Source of the DNA: Mesostigma viride
Lineage: Eukaryota > Streptophyta > Mesostigmatophyceae > Mesostigmatales > Mesostigmataceae
Assembly: GCA_009746045.1 (NCBI GenBank)
Contig: RPFO01000050.1
Span: 4,679,824-4,743,823 of the forward strand
Length of the DNA: 64,000 nucleotides
Direction of reading: 5' to 3'
Shown: positions 2,393 through 54,983 of the stretch, piece by piece
Position numbering within the stretch: position 1 is the stretch's first letter
How the letters are laid out: each line of letters begins with the position of its first letter
Notes under the pieces: generated by a model
What the model was told of the DNA's origin: nothing
The model's input: only the letters and a program-made list of their open reading frames with translations
The model's database searches: none
Made by a program: the position numbers and the translations under genes

Positions 2393-3766
2393 CAGTGTTT
2401 CTAGTAAGGGTTTTTGCTCGCGTCAGCCTGGCTGACTCGCCGCCGTTGGCGGCGCGTCGGACGGCTGACTCGCCGCCGTTGGCGGCGCGTCAGAAAGCTG
2501 ACTCGTTGCCAACGGCGGCAAGTTAGCCAATGGAAGCTCAAGTGGGGAATCCGAAAGGGGTTCTCTTGCTACAGGGCCGAACGACCCCTGAGATAAGGTT
2601 TGGGGCACATGTCTAGCTTTTGAGTCAGTCTGACTTGTAAAAGCGCAACGAGAAATGGGTTCGATGCATGATACAAAATTCAGAATAATATGACCTACTT
2701 CAACTGTTTTTCTGAATTTACTGTTACACTTAATTAGGATGGCATCCACAATGCCACAGCCCAGTACGGCACACACCCACATCAAACTTATTATTTATCA
2801 AACTTAAAATAAAAGACTTTAATGATGAGCTCGTGAACACTAGTGATGTCCCAGCTAGTGGCATGGCAAAACGACCGGCCTGGGGGCTCACCAGCATTGC
2901 CGGACTGAGCCGATGCTGCTGCTACACCACTGGCAGCATTGCTATCATTTCCCCTTTTCCTCTTGCTGCGGTTCAGCTCGTTTGCTGCCTGGCCTACGCC
3001 AACAATGGCACGCGGACTAGGCGCAGGCGCTTTGGCCATGTCGGCGGCCTGTTTCGGCATTAAAAAAGCTGCGATCCCCCCAGATTTAATTTTCCCCAGT
3101 ATTCCTTTCGGCGCCATCCCTTCACCCAAAAACTTCCAACCCCCAGGTCGCTAACTTTTCTAGTTGACTATCAGACTAAACCATTAACGTTGTTAAATGT
3201 TTATACAATATTTCTGACCCGGGCCGAAATTTCACCTACGCGTATAGTAATGAATGGATCCAACAAATCTAAAGCGTTAATCAACACACCTGGAATCCGA
3301 TTCAAAGCAATCTACAAGGAAAGGATGTTCATCTAAATCAGGCAACCTCGCAAAGCTGCGTCAATCAGCTCATCAATCATATTCCGGAGGATCGACCATT
3401 GCCAGTCGTCCTCGGCTAGGTATTGTGCTCGTCTCGAACAGTGGTCTAGACTCTAGAAGTCTCGTCACTCTCGCCGCCAAGCAGGCAAGGGCCGGCAGGT
3501 CTGGCACTTGGCATGGTAACGGGCTGTTTAGGAAGGATTCCGCACTGTCTGACGCATAGACTCGGTGCACATGAGTACTGACGCAGGACGTGCTGCCTAA
3601 ATTTACGCGTCAGACGACTGACGTGCAGTCAAAATTTACGCGTCAGACGACTGACGCGGGGCCAAAATTTACGCGTCAGCTGTCTGACGTGCGGACGAAA
3701 AAGTCGGACGCGTCAGACACTGACGCGTCAGCGGCTGACGTATACGTCCCGTTACTAGAAACACTG
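2393..3766 (+). mobile_element. Non-autonomous hAT transposon with perfect 8-bp TSD
   Basis: Ends are CAGTGTTTCTAGTAA (2393-2407) and its reverse complement finishing at 3766. Target duplication GACAACCG at 2385-2392 and 3767-3774 is perfect. The 8-bp duplication and CAGTG terminus are diagnostic of hAT. Subterminal regions carry many CTGACG/CGTCAG and GCTGACTCGCC words (2425-2530 and 3570-3745), typical transposase-binding arrays. At 1,374 bp it is too short for an hAT transposase and none is visible. Excising it in silico rejoins the D pol reading frame. Confidence 0.92.
2791..3129 (-). CDS. Small basic ORF inside hAT element, unrecognised
   Basis: 112 codons beginning MGEGMAPKGILG and containing a basic NLS-like KRKRG stretch followed by an Ala/Ser-rich tail. 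It could be the remnant N-terminus of an hAT transposase or captured host sequence. No zinc-finger BED or dimerisation motif is visible. A chance ORF cannot be excluded. Confidence 0.25.
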   Translation of the reverse strand: MGEGMAPKGILGKIKSGGIAAFLMPKQAADMAKAPAPSPRAIVGVGQAANELNRSKRKRGNDSNAASGVAAASAQSGNAGEPPGRSFCHATSWDITSVHELIIKVFYFKFDK

Positions 3767-5263
3767 GACAACCGGCGTGGCAACATGCCACTACCAGATC
3801 CTATGCCCGCTTTTCTACCGCACCTTGGCGTGATTTGCGATTTGCCCACGCGCGCTGGGGAGGATGTTTTTGGGGGCGTATCAGATTTGGATTCGTACTA
3901 CAACAGACTCCGCCTGCCAGTTTGGATGCGGCGGTACTGTGCGTGGATGCCGGTGTGGTCGGATCTGGTGGGCCTGAGTGGGGCTCGTCGGAATGTGTGG
4001 CCGTGGATGTTGTGCTGGCCAATGGGCAACAAGCTGGCTGTCGCCGTGGCCCAGTGTGTGCATCAGTCTGTGTCGTACCGCTGTGGCCCCAAGCCGCCGT
4101 TGGAAGCTAGTCGTGGGCTGAGCATCAACATGTCCGCGCTGATCCTGGTGGCGGAGGCCAACGAGGCGGGGGAGATCGTCCGGCTGAGGATGGAGGAGGA
4201 CCCTGCTGCGCCCTTGGCGCCCTCGCCGTGCTTCGAATCTCGGCAGGATCTGGAAGGTATGCATGCTGTGACGATCGATGATTTCCATTTCACCCACTGT
4301 GCGTCGATGGATGGGGTGAATCAGCAGCTAGATCGTGTTCAGGCTGCCTACGCCGCTGTTGGGCTGGTGCAGAAGTCTGACAAGGTGGTACGGGCGACAG
4401 CAGAGCAGACTGGTGTGCAGGCGGTGGGGGTCATTCACCAAAGAGATGGTCACGTGGTGCCTGTTCCTGAGCGTGTGGTGGCAGTTATCGCTGCTACTCA
4501 TAGAATCTTAGATCGCGGGTTCACATACTACCGCGAACTTAGTTCTGTGCTTGGGAAGTGGGTGTGGATGCATCTGCTGTGCCGCCCCATGCTTTCGGTG
4601 TGGTCTGAGACGTACCGGCTGCTAGCAGCCATGAATGCCTCCCTGCCTGGGCGCCGCTGGCGCCTCCCTGCGGGGGCCCGCCAGGAGCTTCAGGCGGCGA
4701 TCGACCTGGCCCCCTTTTTGAGGGCGGCCAGGGCCCGGCCCCTTTCTGACCGGGTCGTCGCAAGTGATGCGAGCAGCTCCGGCGGTGGGGTGGTCTACAG
4801 GGACCTGCCTGGGGCCGATTGTGCCCGGCTGGCGACCCGGCGCGAAGCGCGGGGGTGGCGGACGACAGCTTTAACGTCTGGGGAGGACTGGGACCTGGAG
4901 CGCATGGAGGAGGGGGACTACAGCCTACTGGATAGTGGCCACTGGCGTACGGCACTGTCCTACCGGTGGCGGGGGCAGCCTAACCACATCAACGTCAAGG
5001 AGGCGATTGCTGCGACACAGGGGGTCGAGTGGTCGTGCCGGACCAAGGCGTGTCCAGGTAAGCGAGTCGTCCGGCTCGTGGACTCCAGTGCTGTGGTGGG
5101 GGCGTTTGTCAGAGGGCGGTCGTCTTCCTACCGCCTCAACCAGCTGGTTCGGCGCTACTGCGCTCTGTCACTGGCTGGCGACATGCAGAGCCACTGGGTC
5201 TGGGTGGCTACCGACCACAACCCAGCTGACAAGGCCAGTCGGCGTGGTGATGTGACCCGGTGT

Positions 5264-5290
5264 GGTGGCGTGCATCCCAACCCTGGGCCT
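5264..5290 (+). other. Degenerate 2A-like motif in D pol
   Basis: Codes GGVHPNPGP between RNase H (NPADKASRRGD) and the recombinase N-terminal domain (LEGTVNPVSTLPAYRRA). The NPG^P core is intact but the aspartate of the D-V/I-E-x-NPGP consensus is glycine and the glutamate is histidine, so skipping may be weak or lost. It lies at the same position as the canonical motif of A and C. Confidence 0.6.
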
Positions 5291-5571
5291 GAGGGGGCGC
5301 GACGCCCTCGGGACTTGGCACTTTTGGAGGGCACAGTCAACCCTGTGTCTACCTTGCCAGCGTACCGGCGCGCGGCGGCTGTCTACGTGGCGTGGGCGCC
5401 ACCTGGCCCTGTCGACCCAGCTGACGCGGAAGCCATTTTCTGTGAGTGGATTTCTGCTGTCTACCATGCCAGAGGCGGGCGGGGGCGTACCTTATGCCAG
5501 CACGCCAAGGCCTGTCTGCAACTGTACTACCCCGACATTGTTCGGAATTGGGTACTGGCGGACCGCCTGCT

Positions 5572-6352
5572 TGGTTGATCTCCCTCGATCTGGATTCCCT
5601 AATTTGTCGGGGCGGAGGGAGCGAAGGAGGCGAGGGACGCCGCTGGGTGACAGCACATATAAAAAATAAATAGAGCATTTAATATTTTATAATAGGCCCT
5701 GGTCTTTTATAAGGGGCAGTAGTCACAATGTATAAGGGCCCTGGAATTTAATAAGGGGCGCCAGTGTGGTGGTACGAGATCTGCCCTCTAATAGGGTGAA
5801 AGTCCGTACAAGTAACTTGTAAACTAGTTCTAAGTACTTGGACGTAGTTCCAAGTACTTCACTTGGCCTACAGGGTAGTACAGTCTACTTCAATCTACTT
5901 CAAACTAGTTCATTCTAGTTCAAACTAGTGCTGACGTGCTTCGGCGTAGCACTGGACGCTCAGGAGGTGAACGGACCTACTGGGGTGTAGTAGACCAAGA
6001 CTAAACGTAGTACAATGTCAAAAGAATTAGTAGGGATGGGTTCCTTGTAGTACAACAACTGGCCAAGGGTGCTTTTGGCGCCAAAACCAGGTGTACCGGA
6101 CTTGCATCCGCCACAGTGGGCAAGTACGCTGCCACTTCGCATGGTGTACGAATATTGAATGGGTCACGGAATTGTGTTTCGACCCGAATTAGAAGGACCT
6201 GGGCCGCCGCCGGCCCAAGTCTGAGAAAAAGTGCTGGCATATAACCAGCCGAGGTGTGCCTGAGCTGGTATTCGTTTTTATTAGTTAGTGGTGACGGCCA
6301 GCCATGGTGGCTGGCAATGATTTAAACGAATGCAAAAGGCCTCCCCGAGTCA
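5572..6352 (+). mobile_element. Truncated family B insertion (A repeat plus about 65 bp) in D pol
   Basis: Starts exactly at TGGTTGATCTCCC, runs through the complete B-family A repeat (to 6284) and about 65 bp of B internal sequence, then joins D pol at a G-run shared by both (about 6352). It has no B1, A2 or B2. The same A-plus-short-tail form occurs at 13827-14623. The insertion is accompanied by loss of about 85 codons of the recombinase. Confidence 0.75.
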
Positions 6353-22158: not shown

Positions 22159-22667
22159 TGATTGATCTTACGATCGGGATTCCCTGATTTTGCCTGGGGG
22201 AGCGGAGGGATGGAGGTGCGCCGCTACCTTGGAGGCGCTACACCGTTGCCCAGTGGTGCAAGTCGACATGCGGGAGCCAAACGGGGTGGCCACGCCCTCT
22301 CTGGAGGGTCTGACAGCCTTGGATGGGCCTCAGATGTAGTTCAAACTAGTTCAAAGTTAGTACAGGTAGTACAAACTAGTTCAAACGAGTTCAATCTACT
22401 TCAACTAGTATCCAGGGACCCTCAAGATATGCCAGGTGGTTGCTGAACGGTTCTGGCATGACAGAACATGTGTGACATCATAAAAATGTAGTACAATGTT
22501 GAAAAAAGTAGTATCAGGGTCCTAGATCTAGTACAGTAGTATTCTGAGGTCATTCTTACATGGAGCGCCGCGCCAGCGGGGCGCCGCACTTGCGTGTGTC
22601 ACGGATGCAACGTTGATGCGATGTATTTCAAGGTGGTGATGGCTGCCAAGCCAGCTTATCAGTTTTC
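22159..22667 (+). repeat. Family C A1 repeat
   Basis: Begins TGATTGATCTTACGATC and ends TATCAGTTTTC. The GATC-TTAC-GATC core is identical to family A although the rest differs. CTAGTTCAAA and GTAGTAC words are present. Confidence 0.9.
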
Positions 22668-22908
22668 AACACAACTAGAGCAATACTTCACCGTTTTTGA
22701 CAAAGTTGGTGTCAAACTAATCGTGAGACAATAGCCGACATCATTTTGACGGTTTTCGCACCAAGTTTTGACGGGTTTGCGCAACGGGAGTAAAAGTCCG
22801 CAAGGTAGAACTGAGTGACAAATTTTCAGTCCGAAATTTTTCTCAGTCTCCAAGATTGCGGAATATTGAGCCTAGTTGTGAGAAATTTCTTCATCTTTGA
22901 ATTCTATA

Positions 22909-23619
22909 ATGGCTAGTGATCACGAAGACACCACCCTTGAGGCAGTAGACCGAGATTTCTTATTAAATGTGAAAAAATCGTATTTTCAGGGGGGCAAGGA
23001 GTTGTTAACGACTTTGAAGTTCTTGACTGAGTATCTCGGTCCAAACTGGGCCCAAAGGCTTACTACTATGTCTGAGGGTCGTTTGACATCCTTGGGACAG
23101 TTTCTCAAGACTGCAGGGCTCCAGATTAGTGAGGGGTCAAGTGATTCCGACATGGGTTCCATGTTGTGCAAGGCCATTACTCTAGAGATGAAGAAGCCCC
23201 CAGTGGCCACTGGGGGCAAGGGGAAGACTGGTCCAGCCAGGGGCGAAAGGACCCGAAAGGATCCTCCCAGCAACGGCACCGACGAGGAAGAGGAGGACGC
23301 GACGAGCTCTGAGGATTTTTTGGACGCGCGCGAGCAGCTGGCCCCTGCTGCTGCTCGCGCCAAGGGAAAGAAGTCTCAGGGCAGGAACCGAAAGCTGGCA
23401 GAGAATGCTGCCCTTCTGGCGGGCGTCCGCGAGCTCATCGGAGCGGAGTTGCAAGCCCTGGCGCGGGGGAAGAGGAGGGACGCGAGGAAAGGGAAGAGCC
23501 AGCGCGAGGACAAGGGGGGCAAGGGCCATCCGAAGAGCAAGCGCCAGGAGAAGAGACGCGCGCGGCGCGGGAGCAGCCCAGGCTCGACAGACACCAGCAG
23601 TGGGAGCGACGAGAGTCGC

Positions 23620-23676
<57 letters not shown>

Positions 23677-24417
23677 TCCGACAGCGAGAGCAGAGGCCGT
23701 GGCAGGGGCAGGGGTGGCGCTCGGTCGCGCCGCGACAAGTCCCGGGAGCGACGTGGGCATGGCAGGGGCCGTTCTGCGGAGCCCAAGGGGCGTCGGGATC
23801 GCTCCCGCGAGCGTCGCAAGGAGCGGCAGCGGTCCAGCAGCCGGAGCACGAGTCGGGACTCCTCCCAGCGGAGCTCGCGTCGATCGCGGGAGCGTGTGAG
23901 GGAGAGAGACCTGCGCCGAACCACCAAGGGGGTGCGTCTCCCCCGGCGAGCTTTCAAAGTGGCCTGGCGCCTGTTGGTCAAGGACCGCGACGACAGGGTG
24001 CTGCCGCTGCAGGTGCTGGATGCGCGCCAGGTCGCGCACGGGAGCCTGCAGGCCCGCTTGGCCCTTCGCAAGGAGCAGGAGGGCGTTGGGGCTGCACCGG
24101 GAGCCCCCCGCGGGTGGAAGAACAGCACGCACCATCTGGTGTGCAACAACCTGACCTACATTCTGGATGTGGCCATCCAAGAGCTGGGGGAGGATGTGGT
24201 GACGGAGCTGGCCTGCTTCGAGTACCTGGCGCGTGTGGTCGAGGCGTTCCTCATGGTGGAGAAGACCAGCGGCTGGAACAACGGGGCGATGCACCTGCTG
24301 CCACTGGTGGAGGGCAGTACTATTGGAAGCGCAGCAGCCCGGGCAGCGCGGAAGGCGGCTCGCCAGGAGGCGGAGCTGGCATCGGCGGCGGCGGCGGCGG
24401 CCAAAAAGGACAAGTGA
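22909..24417 (+). CDS. gag: Family C Gag with RS domain (copy 1)
   Basis: Intact 502-codon ORF from ATG 22909 (MASDHEDTTLE); upstream in-frame codons include only TTG. The N-terminal 90 residues (SYFQGGKELLTTLKFLTEYLG..LGQFLKTAG) align with family A Gag. Residues about 215-345 are a strong Arg/Ser domain: a 16-Ser run encoded by AGC repeats, then RSRRDKSRERRGHGRGRS and SSSRSTSRDSSQRSSRRSRER, like SR splicing factors. The C-terminal 150 residues form the domain shared with A and D (TKGVRLPRR, ELACFEYLARVVEAF, LLPLVEGS) and end KKDK. Likely role: RNA-binding particle protein; the RS domain suggests nuclear localisation. C copy 2 differs by one fewer serine. Confidence 0.8.
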
Positions 24418-24420
24418 GGG
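24412..24420 (+). promoter_or_regulatory. gag stop / pol GUG overlap (C copy 1)
   Basis: AAGTGAGGG; TGA at 24415-24417 overlaps GTG of the -1 frame (VRGRGVLPLPVK). A C-AAA-AAG sequence lies 10 bases upstream and is a weak -1 slippery candidate, but it is not conserved in A or D. Confidence 0.5.
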
Positions 24421-27400
24421 GCAGGGGTGTGCTCCCGCTGCCAGTGAAGATGGTCCCCCGCTCGACCGCAGCCGCCTGCGATCCAACCGCAGGCTGCAGC
24501 GCGCTCTGCGTGCCAGAGCAAGGCTGCGGTGTCAAGAGCGGGCCACAAGGGGCCTGAACTGGCTGTGGGGCAGGACCCGGGAACGGTCCGGTGGACCGGC
24601 GGTGCAGCAGCAGGCTATTACTGCGAGCCCCTGCACCGTCGCCCAAAGGGCCGCCCTACAAGGGATGGAGGATGCTGCCCGCGTCTACAACCGCCGGCTT
24701 ACCGCCGTAGCGGAGGCGACAGACACGGGGGACGCAGAGCCCGCGCCATACGGGCCGGGCGGTCAATACGAAATTATTGACCCGGAGAGGCTGGCACTGC
24801 CAAAAGGAGGAGCTGCAGGTAGTGTCAAGCTGCTGGACTGCCTGCCGGAGGCATGGCAGAGGACGTATGAGGACATAAACAACATTCTACAAAGATGCGA
24901 CGCGGAGGCGGGGGCGTGGATGCGGCGGGGCCGGGTGTCTCATGGTTGTGCAAGCGATGCGGCGTACGCACGACTGAGCATCAGGCTGGCGGAGACGCGG
25001 ATGATCGAGTACAGTGAGGAGGCGCCCCTGTGGTGAACGGCTGTTTTGCCGTCCCCAAGAAAGACCCCGGGGTTGTGGAGCCCAGCGAACGACGGCAGCG
25101 GTTTATAGGGAATATGGTGCCGTGCAACCGGCGCTTCCTCAAGCCGCCTACCTGTTACCTGCCTAACTTGGGCGAGGTCGCTGAGCTGAGTGTGGGGGCG
25201 CCATGCTATTCGGGCAAGACAGACCTTGACACCTACTATTACCGGTTCGAGGTACCTGAGAGCTGGCGCCCCTATTTCTCGCTGCCCCCCGTGTGGTCCG
25301 ATGAGGTCGGCCAGCTGGGACGACGGCGAAAGTTGTACCCCAGGTTCCGGGTCCTTGTCATGGGCTGGAGCCACTCGGTGGTCCTTGCACAGGTTGCCCA
25401 CCTGCACTGTCTCTACGGGGCGGGGTGCTCGATGCCAAGAGAGGGCTGTCATATCCCATGCACTTGATGGGGGTGCGCACAGTGCGCGGGGATGGCATGG
25501 ACCGGCTGGAGTTGGTGGAGAGCGCAGCCAGTGCAGCGTGGCGGCTGCTGCCGGAGGATCCCCCACATCCCGCTCAGCTGGTCATGATCGATGATCTGGG
25601 GGTCACCCATGGGCGGAGCGCGGAGGAGACCAACGCCGTGCTCACCAAGGCGTGCGAGGAGAGCTACGGTCCCAAGGGGTTGGTGGTCAACGAGAAGAAG
25701 GTGGAGAGAGCTGAGGAGGGGCGCCCGGTGGAAATCTTGGGGATTGAGTTCTGCCAGGACGGGTCCATGCGGCCGAGCGCGGCCCGGATGGCGGCCTTGG
25801 TGCGCGACACGCAGGCAATGCTGGGGCGTGGACGGGCCACTTACCACCAACTGGCCTCGTTGCTGGGACGGTGGGTGTGGGTCCACTTGCTGCGTCGGGG
25901 TCTACTGTCCATCTGGTTTCACGCCTACCGCTTGCTGCAGCAAGTCCTGGTGCACAAGCGGGGCTGGAGCTATCGGCTGTGGGGTAGTGTAAGGGAAGAG
26001 CTCCAGGCTGCAATGGACTTGGCCCCGCTGGTGCATGCGCAGCGCGACCAGCCCCTGAGCTGCACCGTGGTGGCCACTGATGCGTCAACCCACGGTTCTG
26101 GGGTGGTGTACAGCCGGTGGGAGGCGCCTGCGGTGCGTGGCCTGTCCAACTGTCGGGAGCGGAAGGGCTGGAAGACGCTCTGTGTGGACTCTGAGACGGC
26201 CAGCGTGGAGCGCACAGGGGAGATTGAGCACCGAGCCATGGCAGCGGCGCAGTGGCGCACCGCTCTTGCCCACCGGTGGCTCGATCCCTCGGCCCACATC
26301 AACGAGAAGGAGATTCGTGCGGCTGTGCAAGGGATCGAGTGGGGCCTGCGCTCACAGGTTCACTGGCAGCAACGTCACGTGCGGCTGGTGGACAATTCGG
26401 CAGTTGTCGGTGCGCTCGTCAAAGGGCGTTCGTCGTCCTACCGGCTGAACGCCTGGTGCCGCCGGGCGATCGCGCTAGGGCTGGCCAGCAACACCCGCTA
26501 CCACTGGGTGTATGTGAGGTCGGAGCGCAACCCGGCCGACGCGCCCAGTCGTGGTCGATGGGTGCGCAACCTCACTGCGGATGGCGACGTGGAGAGCAAT
26601 CCGGGGCCACATGGGCGGCAGGAATTGCTGGAGGCCACTGTGCAGCCCAGCACGCTAGCTGCATATCACCGAGCGCTGAGGGCGTACGTGGAGTATGGTC
26701 AACCCCTCGCTCCCGTGGCCAAGACGGAGGCGGAAGGCGTCTTTTGTGAGTGGCTGGTCAGCGTGTATGAGGAAGGGGGAAGCCGGACCATGGTTGTGCG
26801 CGCATTATGCGGGCTGCAGCTGTACTTCCCCAACGAGATTAAGGGGTGGTACGAGGCGCGTCGCTTGCTGGCCGGCTGGGCGCGACGAGTTCCCGTGCAG
26901 AGCCCTCACCCCGTCCCGTGGCAGCTACTGTACCTCGTGGCAAACATTCTTCGTGCACAAGGCTCGATATTAGCTGCCTGCTGCTGCATCATTGTTTTTC
27001 AGCAATACTTGCGCATCGGAGAAGCGTTCAAGCTTCGCGTGGGGGACGTGGCTCTGCGCGGGGACTTCCGCCTGGGGCCCAGTAACCAGGGTGCGCTGCT
27101 GCTACGCGACCCCAAGACAGCCAAGGGCCAGGCCCAGGCAGTGGTGGTTGTTGAGCCCCTTTCACTCACGTTGCTTGGCGCCCTGTGTGCTGGGCGGGCG
27201 CACGAGGAGCTGCTCTTTGGCGCACTCAGCTACAGCCGTTTCTTGCGGCGGTGGCACGCCGCCTGGGACCTCCTTGGCTTGCGGGGGATGTTTTCACCCT
27301 ACAGCATGCGCCACGGGGGGGCCACCCATGACTACCTGCGCGGGGTACCAATCGCGGACATCCAAAAGCGTGGCCGGTGGCGCCAGTTTTCGTCCGTGGA

Positions 27401-27509
27401 CCATTACGTGGGGCTCCACCGCGCCCTGCAGGTGCGGGTGCCCCAGGTGGTGTGGGACCTCGCGGGCAGACTGCCCCCCCGTGACTGGCGTCGTCACTTT
27501 GGGCCGTAG
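24414..27509 (+). pseudogene. pol: Family C pol: RT - RNase H - 2A - tyrosine recombinase (copy 1, frameshifted)
   Basis: Begins in the -1 frame at the gag stop. Three frame breaks: a 5-C instead of 6-C run near 24452 (C copy 2 has 6), a 2-bp TG insertion at about 25032 and a one-base loss near 25420; the last two are shared with copy 2. The main open part is 25425-27509. RT: YYYRFEVP, PRFRVLVMGWSHS, LVMIDDLG (25581-25598). RNase H: VATDAS, NEKE, LVDNS, NPADAPSR. 2A at 26583-26609. Recombinase: LRIGEAFKLR, YSMRHGGATHDYLRG, KRGRWRQF and tyrosine in VDHYVG; stop 27507-27509. The last 30 codons end DWRRHFGP. Integration and reverse transcription functions follow DIRS family knowledge. Confidence 0.85.
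26583..26609 (+). other. Canonical 2A ribosome-skipping motif in C pol (copy 1)
   Basis: Codes G-DVESNPG^P, matching the D(V/I)ExNPG^P consensus of viral 2A peptides. It is in frame between the last RNase H motif (NPADAPSRGRW) and the recombinase N-terminal domain (LEATVQPSTLAAYHRAL). Skipping between G and P would release RT-RNase H from a recombinase beginning with proline. The motif match is seen; activity is inference. Confidence 0.85.
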
Positions 27510-27525
27510 ATTTCGGCCATACTTC

Positions 27526-27563
27526 GGTGAGGCGCACTCTAGCGGACACGCTAGGGCTTCACC
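27526..27563 (+). other. Two-stem hairpin, 3' region of family C
   Basis: Outer stem GGTGAGGC/GCTTCACC, internal loop GCACT opposite G, inner stem CTAGCG/CGCTAG, loop GACA. Versus HP3 of family A (GGGGAGGC/GCTTCCCC) the outer stem has a compensated G-C to T-A change. It lies 17 bp after the pol stop. Confidence 0.75.
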
Positions 27564-27644
27564 AGCTGGAGGGTAAGGATGTGCCCTCCCATGGCTCCTG
27601 ACGCGGTTTCCAGATGTACGGCCTGCGGCCAGGTTGGAGATGCG

Positions 27645-27789
27645 GGTCAAGTGGAAGCGGCGGCCAGGGACTGCCAAAAAATATTTTATGTCTCTCTGTC
27701 TACTAAGTCCGGTCGGCTTCAACATATAGTGTAATAAACAAGTTCTGGTGCCCTTCAACCAGAAGTGGACCTAGGCAATGCACAGTGGA
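27645..27789 (+). repeat. Family C B1 repeat
   Basis: Matches 28334-28478. Contains TAATAAACAAGTTCTGG (probable polyadenylation signal, shared with A). Ends GCACAGTGGA directly before A2. Confidence 0.9.
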
Positions 27790-28298
27790 TGATTGATCTT
27801 ACGATCGGGATTCCCTGATTTTGCCTGGGGGAGCGGAGGGATGGAGGTGCGCCGCTACCTTGGAGGCGCTACACCGTTGCCCAGTGGTGCAAGTCGACAT
27901 GCGGGAGCCAAACGGGGTGGCCACGCCCTCTCTGGAGGGTCTGACAGCCTTGGATGGGCCTCAGATGTAGTTCGAACTAGTTCAAAGTTAGTACAGGTAG
28001 TACAAACTAGTTCAAACGAGTTCAATCTACTTCAACTAGTATCCAGGGACCCTCAAGATATGCCAGGTGGTTGCTGAACGGTTCTGGCATGACAGAACAT
28101 GTGTGACATCATAAAAATGTAGTACAATGTTGAAAAAAGTAGTATCAGGGTCCTAGATCTAGTACAGTAGTATTCTGAGGTCATTCTTACATGGAGCGCC
28201 GCGCCAGCGGGGCGCCGCACTTGCGTGTGTCACGGATGCAACGTTGATGCGATGTATTTCAAGGTGGTGATGGCTGCCAAGCCAGCTTATCAGTTTTC
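27790..28298 (+). repeat. Family C A2 repeat
   Basis: Direct repeat of 22159-22667 with one visible change. It joins B1 at its start and the C-rich spacer at its end. Confidence 0.9.
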
Positions 28299-28478
28299 CC
28301 CACCCACCCACCCTTTTCTGTTTTGTCTTGGGGGGTCAAGTGGAAGCGGCGGCCAGGGACTGCCAAAAAATATTTTATGTCTCTCTGTCTACTAAGTCCG
28401 GTCGGCTTCAACATATAGTGTAATAAACAAGTTCTGGTGCCCTTCAACGAGAAGTGGACCTAGGCAATGCACAGTGGA
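28299..28478 (+). repeat. Family C C-rich spacer and B2 repeat
   Basis: Spacer starts CCCACCCACCCACCC and ends in a G-run; the B2 copy follows (28334-28478). Right end of the element inside the hAT transposon. Confidence 0.9.
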
Positions 28479-40900: not shown

Positions 40901-41232
40901 GTTTGAAGTAGATTGAAGTAGACTGTACTACCCTGTAGGCCAAGTGAAGTACTTGGAACTACGTCCAAGTACTTAGAACTAGTTTACAAGTTACTTGTAC
41001 GGACTTGCACCCTATTAGAGGGCAGATCTCGTACCACCACACTGGCGCCCCTTATTAAATTCCAGGGCCCTTATAAATTGTGACTACTGCCCCTTATAAA
41101 AGACCAGGGCCTATTATAAAATATTAAATGCTATTTACTTTTTATATGTGCTGTCACCCAGCGGCGTCCCTCGCCTCCTTCGCTCCCTCCGCCCCGACAA
41201 ATCAGGGAATCCAGATCGAGGGAGATCAACCA
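37979..41232 (-). mobile_element. Family B element, copy 3, inserted in A copy 3 pol
   Basis: Minus-strand order: A1 41232-40524, internal 40523-38986 (179-bp tandem pair; hairpins at 39102-39139 and 39035-39072), B1 about 38985-38823, A2 38822-38113, C-rich spacer and B2 38112-37979. B2 lacks its outer 50-55 bp. Hairpin 1 has CCAGC/GTTGG, a change kept paired by G-U. The element is flanked by a perfect 127-bp duplication of pol. Confidence 0.87.
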
Positions 41233-41359
41233 TGCACCCCCCTTGGCTGTCTTGGGATCCCGCAGAAGAAGCGCGCCCAGTCCCCGCTGCCCCAGGCGAC
41301 GGTCGCCACGCAGTGCCACGTCCCCCACTCGGAGCTTGAAGGCCTCCCCGATGCGCAGG
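41233..41359 (-). repeat. 127-bp direct duplication, right copy
   Basis: Perfect match to 37852-37978; adjoins the intact A1 end (TGGTTGATC) of B copy 3 and continues into uninterrupted pol. Confidence 0.9.
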
Positions 41360-41766
41360 TATTGCTGGAAAGTGATGACGCACACGGCTGCTGCCATGGG
41401 CGCCCCCTGCCAGCGGAGGAGCTGCACCACCAGGTAGAGCAGCTCCCACGGCACCGGATTGGGGCTATGCGTTTGCACGCGTCGCTGCCACCCGTACAGG
41501 AGCCGGCGGGCCTCGCGCCACCCCTGCACTTGGCTGGGGTAGTACAGTTGCAGCCCACACAGCGCCCTCATGCACATGGAACGCCAGGCTGCTCCCCCTC
41601 CATCCTCGTAGACAGACACGAGCCACTCGCAGAACACGCTCTCCGCTTCCTCCGGCGGTACAGCACCATAGGGCTCAGCCCACAGGAGGTACGCGATCAC
41701 TGCGCGATGGTAGCTGCGCAGGGTCGCGGGCAGCACGGTGCTCTCCAGCAGTTCCTGCCGCCCTCC

Positions 41767-41790
41767 CGGCCCCGGGTTACTCTCCACATC
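41767..41790 (-). other. Canonical 2A motif in family A pol (copy 3)
   Basis: Minus strand codes DVESNPGP preceded by G and followed by GGRQELLESTV. Compared with family C, five of 24 bases differ (GAT/GAC, AGT/AGC, AAC/AAT, CCG/CCA), all synonymous. It sits between RNase H (NPADAPSRGRWVRDL) and the recombinase. Confidence 0.85.
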
Positions 41791-44006
41791 GCCATCGGCG
41801 GTAAGGTCCCGCACCCACCGTCCCCGGCTGGGCGCGTCAGCGGGGTTTCGCTCCGAGCGGATGTACACCCAGTGGTACCTGGTGTTGCTGGCACAGCCCA
41901 GGGCGGCAGCGCGGCGGCACCACGTGTTGAGGCGGTAAGATGATGACCGTCCCTTCACCACTGCGCCCACAACGGCGGTGTTATCCACCAGCCGTACGTG
42001 CCGTCGCCCCCACCGCGCCCGCGTCCGCAGCCCCCACTCTAGGCTCTGCACGGCTGCGCGCGCCTCTTTCTCATTGATGTGCGCCCCCGCGTCCCTCCAC
42101 CGGTGTTTCACCGCCACACGCCAGCGGGCGGTCGCCACCGCCCGATGTTCCCTCTCCCCCGTTCGCTCCACACCGACCTCTTCCGACCCTACACACAGAG
42201 TCTTCCACCCCTTCATTTCGCGGCAGTTGGACAAAGCCTTCACGTCTGCCTCTGCCAGACGGGCGTACACCACACCGGAGCCCCGGCTCGACGCGTCACT
42301 GGCCACGACGGTGGTGTCCAGTGGCTGGTTGCGCTGCGCATGCACCAGGGGAGCCAGGCAGACAGCCGCCCAGAGCTCCCGGCGCACACTTGCCCAGAGT
42401 TGGAAGCGTCCTCCCTTGTGGAGGGCCAGCACTTGGTGGAGCATCCTGTAGGCGTGGAACCAGGTGCTTAGCAGACTCCTGCGCAGCAGCTGGATCCATA
42501 CCCAGCGTCCCAGTAGGGAGGCCAACTCATGGTAGCTTGCACGTCCCCGAGCCAGCACCGCCTCGGTGTCGTGGACCAGGAGGGCCAGTCGCTTCGCCGA
42601 CGGCCACAAGCTCCCATCTTGGTGAAACTCGATGCCCAGGATCTCCACAGCTTGACCTTCCCGCGCCCGCTCGACCTTTTTCTCATTCACCACCAGGCCA
42701 GCTGGCGCGTAGCACTCGGTGCATGCGCGGTCCAGCAGCGCGTTCGCCTCCGCTGCGCTGCGCGCGTGTGTGGTGCCCAGGTCGTCGATCATGACCAACT
42801 GCGCCGGCCGAGGAGGGTCCTCGGGCAGCAGCTGCCAGTCAAGTTCGGCGGCCCCCACCAACTCCATCCACTCCCGTCCTCCCTCACGCACTGTGCGCAC
42901 CCCGAGCTGATGCATCGGGACGCTCACACTCAGCCCGGGGTTCAGCTTCCCCGGCCCGAACAGGGTCTGCATGTGCGCCACCTGCGCCAGCAGGACCGAG
43001 TGAGACCACCCCATCACCAGAACACGGAACCTGGGATAGAGCCGGCGGCGCTCCCCGGGCTGGCCGACCTCGTCCGACCAGACTGGGGGCAGCGCGAACC
43101 ACTCCCGCCACTCCGTTGGCACGGAGAAGCGGTAGTAGTACGTCTCCAGGTCCGTTTTGCTCGAGTAGCTGGGCGCGCCCCCTGCCATCTCGGCCACCGC
43201 CCCCACATCTGGCAGGTAACAGCCGCCAGGGGTGAGGAACTTGTCGTTGCTCTGCACCATGTTGCAGATGAGTCGCTGGCGCTGGGCTGACGGGTCCACC
43301 ACCCCTGGATCGCGCTTGGGCACGCCGAACAGGCCGTTGGTGACCGGGGGCTCCTCCTCGCTGTACTCTGTCATCCCGGTCTCCGCCAGCCGCACGCTCA
43401 GGCGCGCGTACTCTGTGTCGCTCGCACAGCCATGCGTCACTCGCCGTCGACGCCCTGGCTGCACTACCTCCTCCTCCCTCAAAATATTTTTTATGTTGCC
43501 ATATACCTCCCTCCACTGGGGGGGGAGGCAGTCCATCAGCGGCACGCTGCCCGCCACTCCGCCCGCGGGCAGCGCAAGTCTCTCTGGGACAATCATTTCA
43601 TATTGCCCGTCGGGCCCATAGGGCCCAGACTCAACGTCATGCACCAGGTCCTCTGCCGCTACGGCTCTCAGCCGGCGCTCATGGACCTGGGCGGCAATCT
43701 CCAGCCCTTGTAGGGCCGCCTGCTGGGCAGCGGTGCAGGGAGCCGTTGCCGTCGCCCCGCTAGTGCCGCGCCCTGGGGGCCCGCCGGCAGGCGTGGCCAT
43801 TGCTGGCCCCGCCCCACACCCGGCCGCCCCCACAGGCGGTTCCCGTGTCCCCCCCCACATCCAGTTCAGGCCTTCCACGAGCCGGACCATGAGCAGCAAG
43901 CGTGCCCGCCGCCGCGTGGCTCGCTGCAGCCTGCGTCGTGAGCGCAGGCGGGACCGGTCGAGGGGCTGGACGGCCGGAACTGGGAGGGGGAACACGCCGC
44001 GCCCCC

Positions 44007-45904
44007 TCACTTCTGCTTGTTGCTGGCGGAGGAGGAGGCCACCGCCCCCCCATCCACCTTGGCCAGCACCGCCGCGCTGACCCGCGCGTCGTGCTCCTTC
44101 TTGGCGGCCTTGAGAGCCCGTCGCGCCGCCCTCGTCCGCTGGCTGCCGCTCTCCACCACCGGCAGCACGAAGGCGGCCTGGGCGACCCACGCGCCCTGGC
44201 CCCGCTCGCTCTCCACCACCATGAGTGACTCCACGATGCGTGCAAAGTACTCCATGCACGCGAGCTCGGTCACCGCCGTGACTCCCAGCTCCTTCACCGC
44301 CACGTCCAGGGCGTGGCACAGGTTGACCGCGATGTCCATGCGCTCGCGACTCTGCCACCCGCTGGTCTGGCCTGGCCCACGGATGAACATGGGCTTCAGG
44401 CCCTCCAGCCGGGCCCGCAGACTGCCCCCGTACCGGTCCTTGGCCGTTTGCAGGTACTCGGGCAGCACCCGCAGCTTGTACCGGTAGTCCTCCACCTCCC
44501 AAGGGATGCTGGTGGCAGTCCCCGGCAGGGCGACCCCCTTGGTCATGGGCACAGCCAACACCTGGCCGCTCGCTGGGTCGGCGCGACCCGGTAGGCGGTC
44601 CCTGCGGCGCCGGCTGCTGCTGCGCCGGCCCGAGTCGCTGCTGCTGCCGCTGCTGCTGCTGCTGCTGCTGCTGCTGCAACGGCACGTGCGATGGCGGCAC
44701 TTGGGACACTTGGCTGCCTTGGCTCGCGCCGGTGCTGGGGCCACTGGTTTGGCGCCGGGCAGGATTGTCCCACCCCCCCGCGCCCCTTGCTGGGCCGCTG
44801 GGTGTGAGCTGTGCAAGGGATACCCCTCTGCAGGCTCCTCGTCCCCCGCCACGGACGCGGGGGCCGTCACCCATCCCCCCTGGCCGCCCCGGGGCTCTTC
44901 CCCAGTGCCTGGGCCTCCAGCCCCCGGCCACCCGGCTCCCCAGTACCCCGGGGGGGGGGCAGGCACCCAGTAACCGCCCCCTGGCACTGCTCCTTCCCCT
45001 GCCCCACTGGTGTACCCCCATGGAGGGGCTACCCCGGTGGCGTGCAGGCCACCAGCCCACAGTGGGGCTATCCCGGGGTGGGTTTGAGGGGTGTGCCCAC
45101 CCGGCACTCGCAGTGCAGGGCCCAATGGGGGGTGCCCTCCTCCCTGCAAGCCGGCAGGGCCCCCCCCCCCCCCCGCACCCATCACCCCCTGTCCTCCCAT
45201 GACGGCGCCCATGCGGGCCATCATGGCGGGGTCCATGGCCAACAGGTGGGCCCCCGCAGCCCCTCCCTTGCCACCGCTGCGCCCCCCCCCACAGTTGGGG
45301 CCGTGCCCCCTACCCCCTTTCCCCTGGCCCCTCCAGCCACCAGGGGGGTGCCTCCCACCACCTTCCCTCGCCCAGCAAATGGCGTGGCACCTCTGCCAAC
45401 AGTCTCCCCACCCCCTGGGAGACCTGTGCCAGTCTCCTGAGCCGATCCTAGGGCTTCTATGCTCATCTTGCCCATGGTTGCCGCAAATTTTGCCAAATCA
45501 TTGGAAAAATTCGCAGCTTGAGGCGCCCCATGATTCTGCTCATCTCGAGAGGCCCCAGACATGTCCCCCAACATATCTTCGGCCTCCTCAGAGCCTACGA
45601 AGCCCTCCTCGGCCCCCATTTCGGCCAGGAACCCCTCTCGCAGTTTGTGCTCCAAGGAAAACGCGATATTCTTTCCCAGTTGTGCTGGCTCGCTGCTAGC
45701 TTCTATTTCATATCCCACACTCACCAAATACCGTCCTAATGAGTCTAAGGGACTTTTTGAAGAAGCTGCAAGTCTTGCCTTGTAGGCAGGACCGAGGGAA
45801 CCCACTATCAAAGTGGCCAACGAAGTGCTATCCTTATTTGCTGCAAAATAAAGATTTCGTGCAGTTTGCGCGAAACCTCTCGGAATGGGCTCATTCGACC
45901 CCAT
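44007..45904 (-). pseudogene. gag: Family A gag (copy 3), one homopolymer frameshift
   Basis: ATG at 45904 (MGSNEPIPRGFAQ), stop TGA 44009-44007. One break near 45290: a 9-base G/C run where copy 2 has 10, so the ORFs 45904-45221 and 45242-44007 would otherwise be one protein of about 630 residues. Domains in order: an N-terminal domain shared with C Gag (LYFAANKDSTSLATLIVGSLG), a Gly/Pro-rich middle, CPKCRHRTCRC (possible zinc-binding cluster), a short Ser tract with RRSSSRRRRDRLPGR, and the C-terminal Gag domain (TKGVALPG, ELACMEYFARIVES, VLPVVESGS), ending NKQK. Homopolymer length may be a sequencing error rather than a mutation. Confidence 0.78.
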
Positions 45905-48889: not shown

Positions 48890-49361
48890 TGGTCGTTCTT
48901 GGTCCCTGGTGTTGACATTGTTCACTCTGTGTGTCCTGCCCAGTGCCGTCCCTCCCGGCAAGGCCTCCGTGCCAGGCAGTTAGGGGAACCTCCCACCAGG
49001 CTTGGTGTTGGCTAACCCTACACCACTCGGGGTGGAACCGAGTTAACATGTTGGTGCTTTGTACCTTGGATGGCCTGTCGATTGTGCTGGATTTGTGTTG
49101 GGTGCGTTTCTTTTATATTCCTACCCCTTGGTTTCCTCCCGGTGCGTAGGGAGAGGGCTCCCCACCTTTGTGGGGGGGGAGGTGTTACGTCGCGTAACAA
49201 TCTGTCGCAGTTACGGACGTAAATTAGACTATATTATTACACTATATGTTGAAGCCGACCGGACTTAGTAGACAGAGAGACATAAAATATTTTTTGGCAG
49301 TCCCTGGCCGCCGCTTCCACTTGACCCCCCAAGACAAAACAGAAAAGGGTGGGTGGGTGGG

Positions 49362-49864
49362 GAAAACTGATAAGCTGGCTTGGCAGCCATCACCACCTTG
49401 AAATACATCGCATCAACGTTGCATCCGTGACACACGCAAGTGCGGCGCCCCGCTGGCGCGGCGCTCCATGTAAGAATGACCTCAGAATACTACTGTACTA
49501 GATCTAGGACCCTGATACTACTTTTTTCAACATTGTACTACATTTTTATGATGTCACACATGTTCTGTCATGCCAGAACCGTTCAGCAACCACCTGGCAT
49601 ATCTTGAGGGTCCCTGGATACTAGTTGAAGTAGATTGAACTCGTTTGAACTAGTTTGTACTACCTGTACTAACTTTGAACTAGTTCGAACTACATCTGAG
49701 GCCCATCCAAGGCTGTCAGACCCTCCAGAGAGGGCGTGGCCACCCCGTTTGGCTCCCGCACTTGCACCACTGGGCAACGGTGTAGCGCCTCCAAGGTAGC
49801 GGCGCACCTCCATCCCTCCGCTCCCCCAGGCAAAATCAGGGAATCCCGATCGTAAGATCAATCA
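49362..49864 (-). repeat. Family C A2 repeat (copy 2)
   Basis: Reverse complement of the A repeat, missing 6 bp near 49760 (GTCGAC-containing) relative to A1, so A1 and A2 have begun to diverge. Confidence 0.85.
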
Positions 49865-50077
49865 TCCACTGTGCATTGCCTAGGTCCACTTCTGGTTGAA
49901 GGGCACCAGAACTTGTTTATTACACTATATGTTGAAGCCGACCGGACTTAGTAGACAGAGAGACATAAAATATTTTTTGGCAGTCCCTGGCCGCCGCTTC
50001 CACTTGACCCGCATCTCCAACCTGGCCGCAGGCCGTACATCTGGAAACCGCGTCAGGAGCCATGGGAGGGCACATCC

Positions 50078-53000
50078 TTACCCTCCAGCTGGTGAAGCCC
50101 TAGCGTGTCCGCTAGAGTGCGCCTCACCGAAGTATGGCCGAAATCTATGGCCCAAAGTGACGACGCCAGTCACGGGGGGCAGTCTGCCCGCGAGGTCCCA
50201 CACCACCTGGGGCACCCGCACCTGCAGGGCGCGGTGGAGCCCCACGTAATGGTCCACGGACGAAAACTGGCGCCACCGGCCACGCTTTTGGATGTCCGCG
50301 ATTGGTACCCCGCGCAGGTAGTCATGGGTGGCCCCCCCGTGGCGCATGCTGTAGGGTGAAAACATCCCCCGCAAGCCAAGGAGGTCCCAGGCGGCGTGCC
50401 ACCGCCGCAAGAAACGGCTGTAGCTGAGTGCGCCAAAGAGCAGCTCCTCGTGCGCCCGCCCAGCACACAGGGCGCCAAGCAACGTGAGTGAAAGGGGCTC
50501 AACAACCACCACTGCCTGGGCCTGGCCCTTGGCTGTCTTGGGGTCGCGTAGCAGCAGCGCACCCTGGTTACTGGGCCCCAGGCGGAAGTCCCCGCGCAGA
50601 GCCACGTCCCCCACGCGAAGCTTGAACGCTTCTCCGATGCGCAAGTATTGCTGAAAAACAATGATGCAGCAGCAGGCAGCTAATATCGAGCCTTGTGCAC
50701 GAAGAATGTTTGCCACGAGGTACAGTAGCTGCCACGGGACGGGGTGAGGGCTCTGCACGGGAACTCGTCGCGCCCAGCCGGCCAGCAAGCGACGCGCCTC
50801 GTACCACCCCTTAATCTCGTTGGGGAAGTACAGCTGCAGCCCGCATAATGCGCGCACAACCATGGTCCGGCTTCCCCCTTCCTCATACACGCTGACCAGC
50901 CACTCACAAAAGACGCCTTCCGCCTCCGTCTTGGCCACGGGAGCGAGGGGTTGACCATACTCCACGTACGCCCTCAGCGCTCGGTGATATGCAGCTAGCG
51001 TGCTGGGCTGCACAGTGGCCTCCAGCAATTCCTGCCGCCCATGTGGCCCCGGATTGCTCTCCACGTCGCCATCCGCAGTGAGGTTGCGCACCCATCGACC
51101 ACGACTGGGCGCGTCGGCCGGGTTGCGCTCCGACCTCACATACACCCAGTGGTAGCGGGTGTTGCTGGCCAGCCCTAGCGCGATCGCCCGGCGGCACCAG
51201 GCGTTCAGCCGGTAGGACGACGAACGCCCTTTGACGAGCGCACCGACAACTGCCGAATTGTCCACCAGCCGCACGTGACGTTGCTGCCAGTGAACCTGTG
51301 AGCGCAGGCCCCACTCGATCCCTTGCACAGCCGCACGAATCTCCTTCTCGTTGATGTGGGCCGAGGGATCGAGCCACCGGTGGGCAAGAGCGGTGCGCCA
51401 CTGCGCCGCTGCCATGGCTCGGTGCTCAATCTCCCCTGTGCGCTCCACGCTGGCCGTCTCAGAGTCCACACAGAGCGTCTTCCAGCCCTTCCGCTCCCGA
51501 CAGTTGGACAGGCCACGCACCGCAGGCGCCTCCCACCGGCTGTACACCACCCCAGAACCGTGGGTTGACGCATCAGTGGCCACCACGGTGCAGCTCAGGG
51601 GCTGGTCGCGCTGCGCATGCACCAGCGGGGCCAAGTCCATTGCAGCCTGGAGCTCTTCCCTTACACTACCCCACAGCCGATAGCTCCAGCCCCGCTTGTG
51701 CACCAGGACTTGCTGCAGCAAGCGGTAGGCGTGAAACCAGATGGACAGTAGACCCCGACGCAGCAAGTGGACCCACACCCACCGTCCCAGCAACGAGGCC
51801 AGTTGGTGGTAAGTGGCCCGTCCACGCCCCAGCATTGCCTGCGTGTCGCGCACCAAGGCCGCCATCCGGGCCGCGCTCGGCCGCATGGACCCGTCCTGGC
51901 AGAACTCAATCCCCAAGATTTCCACCGGGCGCCCCTCCTCAGCTCTCTCCACCTTCTTCTCGTTGACCACCAACCCCTTGGGACCGTAGCTCTCCTCGCA
52001 CGCCTTGGTGAGCACGGCGTTGGTCTCCTCCGCGCTCCGCCCATGGGTGACCCCCAGATCATCGATCATGACCAGCTGAGCGGGATGTGGGGGATCCTCC
52101 GGCAGCAGCCGCCACGCTGCACTGGCTGCGCTCTCCACCAACTCCAGCCGGTCCATGCCATCCCCGCGCACTGTGCGCACCCCCATCAAGTGCATGGGAT
52201 ATGACAGCCCTCTCTTGGCATCGAGCACCCCGCCCCGTAGAGACAGTGCAGGTGGGCAACCTGTGCAAGGACCACCGAGTGGCTCCAGCCCATGACAAGG
52301 ACCCGGAACCTGGGGTACAACTTTCGCCGTCGTCCCAGCTGGCCGACCTCATCGGACCACACGGGGGGCAGCGAGAAATAGGGGCGCCAGCTCTCAGGTA
52401 CCTCGAACCGGTAATAGTAGGTGTCAAGGTCTGTCTTGCCCGAATAGCATGGCGCCCCCACACTCAGCTCAGCGACCTCGCCCAAGTTAGGCAGGTAACA
52501 GGTAGGCGGCTTGAGGAAGCGCCGGTTGCACGGCACCATATTCCCTATAAACCGCTGCCGTCGTTCGCTGGGCTCCACAACCCCGGGGTCTTTCTTGGGG
52601 ACGGCAAAACAGCCGTTCACCACAGGGGCGCCTCCTCACTGTACTCGATCATCCGCGTCTCCGCCAGCCTGATGCTCAGTCGTGCGTACGCCGCATCGCT
52701 TGCACAACCATGAGACACCCGGCCCCGCCGCATCCACGCCCCCGCCTCCGCGTCGCATCTTTGTAGAATGTTGTTTATGTCCTCATACGTCCTCTGCCAT
52801 GCCTCCGGCAGGCAGTCCAGCAGCTTGACACTACCTGCAGCTCCTCCTTTTGGCAGTGCCAGCCTCTCCGGGTCAATAATTTCGTATTGACCGCCCGGCC
52901 CGTATGGCGCGGGCTCTGCGTCCCCCGTGTCTGTCGCCTCCGCTACGGCGGTAAGCCGGCGGTTGTAGACGCGGGCAGCATCCTCCATCCCTTGTAGGGC

Positions 53001-53241
53001 GGCCCTTTGGGCGACGGTGCAGGGGCTCGCAGTAATAGCCTGCTGCTGCACCGCCGGTCCACCGGACCGTTCCCGGGTCCTGCCCCACAGCCAGTTCAGG
53101 CCCCTTGTGGCCCGCTCTTGACACCGCAGCCTTGCTCTGGCACGCAGAGCGCGCTGCAGCCTGCGGTTGGATCGCAGGCGGCTGCGGTCGAGCGGGGGGA
53201 CCATCTTCACTGGCAGCGGGAGCACACCCCTGCCCCTCACT
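50078..53241 (-). pseudogene. pol: Family C pol (copy 2), frameshifted
   Basis: From the GTG overlapping the gag stop (53240) the -1 frame is open to 52617 (here the 6-C run is intact), then come the same TG insertion and the same one-base loss as in copy 1, then the long part 52228-50078 with IDD, RNase H motifs, 2A (51067-51044) and recombinase. A further one-base loss in the final C-run (6 versus 7) replaces the normal end DWRRHFGP with a 34-residue extension; the original stop corresponds to about 50130. Confidence 0.85.
51044..51067 (-). other. Canonical 2A motif in family C pol (copy 2)
   Basis: Minus strand codes DVESNPGP, identical in nucleotide sequence to copy 1, and in frame within the open part of pol. 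Confidence 0.85.
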
Positions 53242-53977
53242 TGTCCTTTTTGGCCGCCGCCGCCGCCGCCGATGCCAGCTCCGCCTCCTGGCGAGCCGCC
53301 TTCCGCGCTGCCCGGGCTGCTGCGCTTCCAATAGTACTGCCCTCCACCAGTGGCAGCAGGTGCATCGCCCCGTTGTTCCAGCCGCTGGTCTTCTCCACCA
53401 TGAGGAACGCCTCGACCACACGCGCCAGGTACTCGAAGCAGGCCAGCTCCGTCACCACATCCTCCCCCAGCTCTTGGATGGCCACATCCAGAATGTAGGT
53501 CAGGTTGTTGCACACCAGATGGTGCGTGCTGTTCTTCCACCCGCGGGGGGCTCCCGGTGCAGCCCCAACGCCCTCCTGCTCCTTGCGAAGGGCCAAGCGG
53601 GCCTGCAGGCTCCCGTGCGCGACCTGGCGCGCATCCAGCACCTGCAGCGGCAGCACCCTGTCGTCGCGGTCCTTGACCAACAGGCGCCAGGCCACTTTGA
53701 AAGCTCGCCGGGGGAGACGCACCCCCTTGGTGGTTCGGCGCAGGTCTCTCTCCCTCACACGCTCCCGCGATCGACGCGAGCTCCGCTGGGAGGAGTCCCG
53801 ACTCGTGCTCCGGCTGCTGGACCGCTGCCGCTCCTTGCGACGCTCGCGGGAGCGATCCCGACGCCCCTTGGGCTCCGCAGAACGGCCCCTGCCATGCCCA
53901 CGTCGCTCCCGGGACTTGTCGCGGCGCGACCGAGCGCCACCCCTGCCCCTGCCACGGCCTCTGCTCTCGCTGTCGGA

Positions 53978-54031
<54 letters not shown>

Positions 54032-54742
54032 GCGACTCTCGTCGCTCCCACTGCTGGTGTCTGTCGAGCCTGGGCTGCTCCCGCGCCGCGCGCGTCTCTT
54101 CTCCTGGCGCTTGCTCTTCGGATGGCCCTTGCCCCCCTTGTCCTCGCGCTGGCTCTTCCCTTTCCTCGCGTCCCTCCTCTTCCCCCGCGCCAGGGCTTGC
54201 AACTCCGCTCCGATGAGCTCGCGGACGCCCGCCAGAAGGGCAGCATTCTCTGCCAGCTTTCGGTTCCTGCCCTGAGACTTCTTTCCCTTGGCGCGAGCAG
54301 CAGCAGGGGCCAGCTGCTCGCGCGCGTCCAAAAAATCCTCAGAGCTCGTCGCGTCCTCCTCTTCCTCGTCGGTGCCGTTGCTGGGAGGATCCTTTCGGGT
54401 CCTTTCGCCCCTGGCTGGACCAGTCTTCCCCTTGCCCCCAGTGGCCACTGGGGGCTTCTTCATCTCTAGAGTAATGGCCTTGCACAACATGGAACCCATG
54501 TCGGAATCACTTGACCCCTCACTAATCTGGAGCCCTGCAGTCTTGAGAAACTGTCCCAAGGATGTCAAACGACCCTCAGACATAGTAGTAAGCCTTTGGG
54601 CCCAGTTTGGACCGAGATACTCAGTCAAGAACTTCAAAGTCGTTAACAACTCCTTGCCCCCCTGAAAATACGATTTTTTCACATTTAATAAGAAATCTCG
54701 GTCTACTGCCTCAAGGGTGGTGTCTTCGTGATCACTAGCCAT
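53237..54742 (-). CDS. gag: Family C Gag with RS domain (copy 2)
   Basis: Intact 501-codon ORF, one Ser shorter than copy 1 in the AGC tract and otherwise the same: N-terminal domain, RS domain of about 130 residues, conserved C-terminal Gag domain, KKDK end. ATG at 54742 reads MASDHEDTTLE. That gag stays open in both copies while pol does not suggests either recent origin from one defective master or supply of Pol in trans. Confidence 0.8.
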
Positions 54743-54983
54743 TATAGAATTCAAAGATGAAGAAATTTCTCACAACTAGGCTCAATATTCCGCAATCTTG
54801 GAGACTGAGAAAAATTTCGGACTGAAAATTTGTCACTCAGTTCTACCTTGCGGACTTTTACTCCCGTTGCGCAAACCCGTCAAAACTTGGTGCGAAAACC
54901 GTCAAAATGTTGTCGGCTATTGTCTCACGATTAGTTTGACACCAACTTTGTCAAAAACGGTGAAGTATTGCTCTAGTTGTGTT

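Follow-up and report, generated by a model that had tools for sequence, protein, structure and literature searches.

The window analysed here, the full 64,000-nucleotide stretch of Mesostigma viride DNA, contains a tyrosine recombinase (YR) retrotransposon, element A, in whose pol frame a sequence resembling the 2A/StopGo peptides lies between the RNase H motifs and the recombinase. It also holds an inverted second copy of this element and two diverged relatives, elements B and C. The features to which we refer are the following.

3575..5578, forward strand: element C, a diverged pol with its YR interrupted
5264..5290, forward strand: altered 2A of element C, GGVHPNPGP
22159..28478, forward strand: element A, a YR retrotransposon of about 6.3 kb with split direct repeats in the order A1 ... 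B1-A2 B2 (self-BLAST and repeat search)
22159..22667, forward strand: repeat A1, 99.8% identical to 27790-28298
22882..24417, forward strand: gag-like ORF of 511 aa, so called by position, in which no Pfam domain was found
25305..27509, forward strand: ORF of 734 aa with the end of the reverse transcriptase (RT), RNase H, 2A and tyrosine recombinase
26529..26552, forward strand: NPADAPSR, the last RNase H motif, with N, P, A, D, P, S and R the same in all 35 rows of alignment A6
26559..26609, forward strand: 17-codon 2A/StopGo block, WVRNLTADG-DVESNPG^P, of motif-4 type
26583..26609, forward strand: core of this block, G-DVESNPGP (translation and pattern match)
26610..27509, forward strand: tyrosine recombinase (PF00589, E 5.6e-7, ORF residues 551-703)
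27644..27789, forward strand: repeat B1, 99.3% identical to 28333-28478 and abutting A2
27790..28298, forward strand: repeat A2 (repeat search)
28333..28478, forward strand: repeat B2 (repeat search)
41131..45309, reverse strand: pol frame of element B, open through RT, RNase H and 2A, with YR similarity lost partway where a repeat interrupts
41767..41817, reverse strand: 2A block of element B, WVRDLTADGDVESNPGP
49234..55492, reverse strand: second copy of element A, inverted, 99.8% identical over 6269 aligned columns
51044..51070, reverse strand: GDVESNPGP of the second copy, identical in DNA over the 44 codons compared

Within the 734-residue ORF, the codons GGC GAC GTG GAG AGC AAT CCG GGG CCA read G-DVESNPGP in frame. 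Only 6 bases separate the end of NPADAPSR from the tryptophan that opens the block, and 19 residues lead from NPADAPSR to the end of NPGP, after which the recombinase begins. The first-pass annotation had placed such a core after the final RNase H motif and ahead of a recombinase, and translation together with the downstream PF00589 match confirms that it lies there in frame. The block thus stands between two proteins in a eukaryote, and its core has the form (D/G/C/N)(V/I)ExNPGP given for StopGo by Li et al. 2026 (PMC12846837, cited throughout from its accessible portions). RT, RNase H and tyrosine recombinase of the DIRS order are all present, the RNase H by motif only; element A itself gives PF00589, and RVT_1 is matched only in distant relatives. 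No Pfam RNase H family was matched in scans of two gag-like ORFs and 13 other proteins, and what we take to be the RNase H of these pols is named by its motifs and position. The same 15 proteins yielded no protease domain.

Each of the three pols in the window is damaged: in A the RT frame is broken, and in B and C the recombinase is interrupted. Specifically, the RT frame of element A breaks near 25036 and about 25450, and up to about 25440 the 734-residue ORF runs in another frame than the RT; a copy elsewhere in the genome (L001) has a single open frame of 1092 residues running RT-RNase H-2A-YR, with the first methionine of its recombinase part 60 residues past the core. Another repeat family, at 5572-6056, 11193-11947, 34354-36480, 37984-38955 and 46520-47246, appears to interrupt the recombinases of B and C. 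The inverted 6.3-kb pair (22159-28426 and 49234-55492, 99.8% identical) is due either to recent duplication or to the assembly. The Mesostigma gene model of element A (P0001) matches the queried region at 100%, and its AlphaFold2 model (mean pLDDT 73.8, pTM 0.49) has fold matches to RTs and to Cre. In this prediction the 2A block, residues 438-454, is modelled within a low-confidence stretch between two domains (residues 437-454 below pLDDT 50, as are 1-78, 84-123, 304-321 and 620-629).

The element had been called PAT-like, and the part of this that stands is the split direct repeats. According to the accessible portions of the relevant papers (PMC8547959, PMC3266345, PMC3783388), Ngaro elements have split repeats arranged as A1-[ORFs]-B1A2B2, PAT elements likewise have split repeats, and the pol of DIRS1 runs RT-RNase H-methyltransferase, with PAT similar except for its termini. 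The part that does not stand is the methyltransferase domain of PAT, for which element A has no room between RNase H and recombinase; Ngaro, with split direct repeats and no methyltransferase, also fits, and because of this missing room the element may be of either the PAT or the Ngaro kind.

The DNA pattern for D(V/I/M)ExNPGP matches the window three times, at 26586 (+), at 51045 (-, the inverted second copy) and at 41768 (-, the diverged element B), against 0 matches in 100 dinucleotide shuffles. A six-frame translation of the window contains NPGP five times: once each in element A, in the inverted copy of A, in B and in C (GGVHPNPGP), and once at 6691, where QNPGP is out of context. Across the Mesostigma assembly (440 Mb in 2243 contigs), DVExNPGP has 177 matches against 0 for a reversed control and DVHxNPGP has 326 against 1, counts in which near-identical copies are not independent; by eye, DVExNPGP has at least 12 DNA spellings among the matches listed. 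Where the context of DVExNPGP loci was read (L051-L064, n=14), 10 are RNase H-YR junctions of pols and 4 lie elsewhere. At L052, L059, L060 and L061, on the reverse strand, DLTxDGDVExNPGP is found outside YR pols, after a common FIN(L/I/F)(R/K)..R.(Y/T)WRA stretch, and at L060 it is in a tandem repeat.

The first-pass annotation had proposed a search for NPGP between RNase H and recombinase of related elements, and it is present there in several Mesostigma families and in the intact copy L001. The blocks read WVRNLTADG-DVESNPGP (A), WVRDLTADG-DVESNPGP (B), WVRDLTADG-DVERNPGP (L057), WRRDLTSDG-DVEANPGP (L051, L058), WHRDLTSDG-DVEANPGP (L062), WRRNLTADG-DVEANPGP (L064) and WLRDLTQDG-DVEANPGP (L063); divergent blocks have RDLAADG (P0005), WVPNVTQAG (P0006), TANG (one in L008) or NPGR (one in L026). 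Family C occupies at least 91 places genome-wide at 97-99% identity, and all 20 fetched copies read W(I/V)PDLTRCGDVHPNPGP, that is, W(I/V)PDLTRCG-DVHPNPGP. A second DNA spelling of DVHPNPGP, GATGTCCACCCCAACCCGGGCCC, at G000 C1:10104305, C1:12041351 and C2:4663508, suggests another 2A family.

The block is kept more at the amino-acid than at the DNA level. Of the differences between A and B in the block, 8 are synonymous and 1 is a replacement, the core accounting for 4 and 0; the 366 codons before it have 143 and 105. Summed over pairs of 13 distinct DNA blocks, synonymous and replacement differences stand at 416:269 in the block, 217:79 in the core and 157:875 in the next 17 codons, with the reservations that pairs are not independent, that the comparison with the next 17 codons is ungapped and crude, that the search pattern fixed several letters and that the L059 block is not from a YR junction. 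All 11 DVE/DVH rows have 17 residues from the tryptophan to the final proline, and all 3 GIE rows have 16; the spacing from SR to the tryptophan varies from 2 to 9 residues. The first methionine past the core lies 29-122 residues downstream in 12 of 14 rows, the other two rows being cut short, and a recombinase start by internal initiation right at the junction is unlikely because of this distance.

It is the upstream context that gives the strongest support for the 2A reading of these sequences, the published assays being in reticulocyte lysate and not in an alga. Li et al. (PMC12846837) describe an upstream motif 4, DLTxDG with p12=D, and an upstream motif 1, (R/K)DLTxE with p12=G and p15=P, and the tested example of each was almost 100% active in rabbit reticulocyte lysate; the two motifs have WV(R/K)DLTx[acidic]G in common, offset by one residue. 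Compared by eye with these recognised active contexts, the Mesostigma WVR(D/N)LTxDG before DVExNPGP corresponds to motif 4, and W(T/V)RDLTEEG-IEPNPGP, at the same junction in P0008, P0013 and P0014, corresponds to motif 1, so that the published one-residue offset also separates the two element clades. The core of family C has H in place of E at p14, a variant of which an example was over 95% active in the same source. Two distant proteins, P0011 and P0012, have NPGP directly behind RIGEA(S/Q); in P0011 a long insert, placed between its RNase H motif and an end that resembles a recombinase, comes first. Neither was counted as 2A, since the dinoflagellate-like IGEAxNPGP has A at p14.

Relatives were collected by three protein searches with about 8000 candidates scored in each (one search contributing 120 of 272 matches), which gave at least 139 proteins. 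The junction was classed in 124 of 131 rows (129 proteins plus B and C of the window); the rows dropped, with no NPADxPSR or fewer than 300 residues before it, were P0003, P0007, P0011, P0012, P0046, P0093 and P0100, and P0003 does carry the motif. Among the 124 classed Pols, 78 have their end 1-15 residues past NPADxPSR, so the RNase H boundary is a usual protein end. NPGP is present in 10 (6 DVExNPGP, 3 GIEPNPGP and element C of the window), and the script assigned 30 to an FDST class and 6 to a GDGP class; by eye, P0018 (FDATLG), placed under GDGP, belongs with FDST, and the FDST row P0083 ends GEGGS. Among the 139 proteins, 44 have at least 60 residues after NPADxPSR, comprising 30 with FDxT, 9 with NPGP, 4 with SS(D/N)...GDGP and 1 with none, P0011 with its long insert. 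Ten proteins were new in the third search: P0131 has CGDVHPNPGP, eight end 9-38 residues past the start of NPAD, and P0130 is without the junction. P0121, a stop-type Pol filed in nr under Nostoc sp. DedSLP01, is probably eukaryotic contamination of a cyanobacterial assembly. Scans of viral contigs and GTDB found no DNA of the relatives.

In a quick tree of 66 rows (all 46 non-stop rows and 20 of the 78 stop rows), the GIE rows (99, starred) are nested with the FDST rows (97, starred), far from the DVE rows, and a branch (81) sets the stop rows apart from all others; element C is long-branched there and carries a long-branch warning. A set of 36 rows was drawn after this first tree, without P0001, P0003 and element C; it included 16 of the 30 FDST rows, 2 of the 6 rows of the GDGP class and 10 of the 78 that stop. 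In its tree the stop rows have no support as one side (0), and a single common clade of all eight 2A rows is rejected (p-AU 0.0019). In these quick, unrooted trees the junction carries 2A in two clades that are separate from each other. Because the root is not fixed, two gains are not separable from one gain with replacements, and either fits.

At this junction a further block, FDSTLG(F/Y)PGEGP, is found in P0009, P0010, P0015-P0037, P0039-P0041, P0043, P0047 and P0083, with FDAT in P0018 and without the last P in P0083. When FDxT by itself serves as the anchor, the 30 FDxT proteins have 32 occurrences, all of which continue (L/K)G(F/Y)PGEGP (17 FDSTLGFPGEGP, 12 FDSTLGYPGEGP, 2 FDSTKGFPGEGP and 1 FDATLGFPGEGP), and P0026 and P0029 have the block twice. 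In a profile anchored on PGEGP, where the invariance of those five letters is by construction, information drops to 1.65 bits one position past the last P. No FD(S/A)T(L/K)G was found outside the junction among the proteins collected, and the string FDSTLG had no match in the literature search. In the model of P0020 (mean pLDDT 85.7, with fold matches to RT chains) the sole stretch below pLDDT 50 past residue 124 is 667-683, which covers the block. Furthermore, two MAFFT alignments, each of 35 chosen fused rows, set the G-P of NPGP over the G-P of PGEGP or GDGP, invariant. The exchange of the FDST block for 2A in a nested clade suggests that the two may have an equivalent role. It is tempting to go further and to suppose that FDSTLG(F/Y)PGEG^P, with a variant (F/Y)SSxxxGDG^P, makes up a new class of signal for skipping a peptide bond, not related to NPGP, one that many YR retrotransposons would use at the RNase H-YR junction and that one clade would have exchanged for canonical 2A; we put this forward tentatively, as an idea with perhaps one chance in three of being right.

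Turning to what the NPGP block may do, we consider it very probable that it is a working 2A/StopGo element through which RT-RNase H and recombinase are made separately. The ribosome would finish WVR(D/N)LTxDGDVExNPG, whereupon the nascent chain in the exit tunnel would prevent the Gly-Pro bond; RT-RNase H would be released with an 18-residue tail after NPADAPSR, and translation would continue into a separate recombinase starting with proline. A YR retrotransposon with neither protease nor DDE integrase could in this way express both enzymes from one frame. Skipping itself, its efficiency and with it any ratio of products, the use of two free proteins and the dispensability of a protease are what we infer from sequence. 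The earlier identification of a canonical 2A is strengthened by the upstream match, the amino-acid conservation, the low-confidence stretch of the model and the occurrence in two separate clades.

It is worth considering what else the block might be. Skipping could be deliberately incomplete, with an RT-RNase H-YR fusion as the main integration-competent product, the split forms as accessories and 2A setting the ratio. Natural mixtures of cleaved and uncleaved forms are reported in the accessible portions of a 2016 sea-urchin 2A paper, and family C does have the rarer p14=H core; however, the examples of motif 4 and of p14=H that were assayed in 2026 (PMC12846837) proved highly active, and in the 78 stop-type relatives the RT-RNase H protein ends right at the junction, so that we regard this version as unlikely. 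We think it more improbable again that the block is a conserved linker, a host protease site or a binding site between two domains. Interdomain linkers can be conserved, and at this junction other clades conserve a block of a quite different kind, but a plain linker or site would have to match the viral StopGo consensus over 17 residues, upstream class included (PMC12846837), and to do so in two separate clades.

A chance match, or a fossil of dead elements, is hardly credible, even with all three pols of the window damaged somewhere: chance origin is rejected by the shuffles and the genome control, synonymous change is in excess, and full-length open frames exist elsewhere. We therefore return to the 2A reading as the preferred one. 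If it is true, the range of StopGo, so far RNA viruses and non-LTR elements, would take in tyrosine-recombinase retrotransposons and a streptophyte alga, and StopGo would explain how free RT and recombinase come from one frame in elements without a protease. The RNase H-YR junction is in itself a natural experiment, in which ends after RNase H, two 2A classes and the conserved, previously undescribed FDSTLGxPGEGP block alternate.

The first-pass annotation knew of no 2A in DIRS, PAT or Kangaroo elements, and our literature search likewise found no earlier description in elements of the DIRS order. Rao et al. 2025, reportedly a survey of 2A in viral and cellular proteomes, lay outside the reach of that search and may include such proteins. 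The accessible portions of PMC12846837, which liken class B of Rao 2025 to motifs 1/4, report no evidence of StopGo use by plant viruses and make no mention of transposons, DIRS or tyrosine recombinase, although one reference title names retrotransposons.

Among known systems, Ngaro and PAT/Kangaroo elements have split direct repeats, RT, RNase H and tyrosine recombinase as element A has. As far as the accessible portions of their descriptions go, however, their YR is an ORF of its own, perhaps in frame with RT-RNase H in fungal Ngaro, and 2A is not mentioned. The viral StopGo sequences with motif 4 or motif 1 (PMC12846837) have the same core octapeptide, the same WV(R/K)DLTx[acidic]G and the same one-residue offset between p12=D and p12=G, but sit in the ORFs of RNA viruses, whereas those described here are in retrotransposons of a streptophyte alga. 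Non-LTR retrotransposons (L1Tc and APE-type elements) have 2A sequences (cited in the accessible portions of PMC4981915 and PMC11512398) and are likewise retroelements using 2A; in contrast to them, the elements described here encode RT-RNase H and a tyrosine recombinase, with the 2A between both enzymes.
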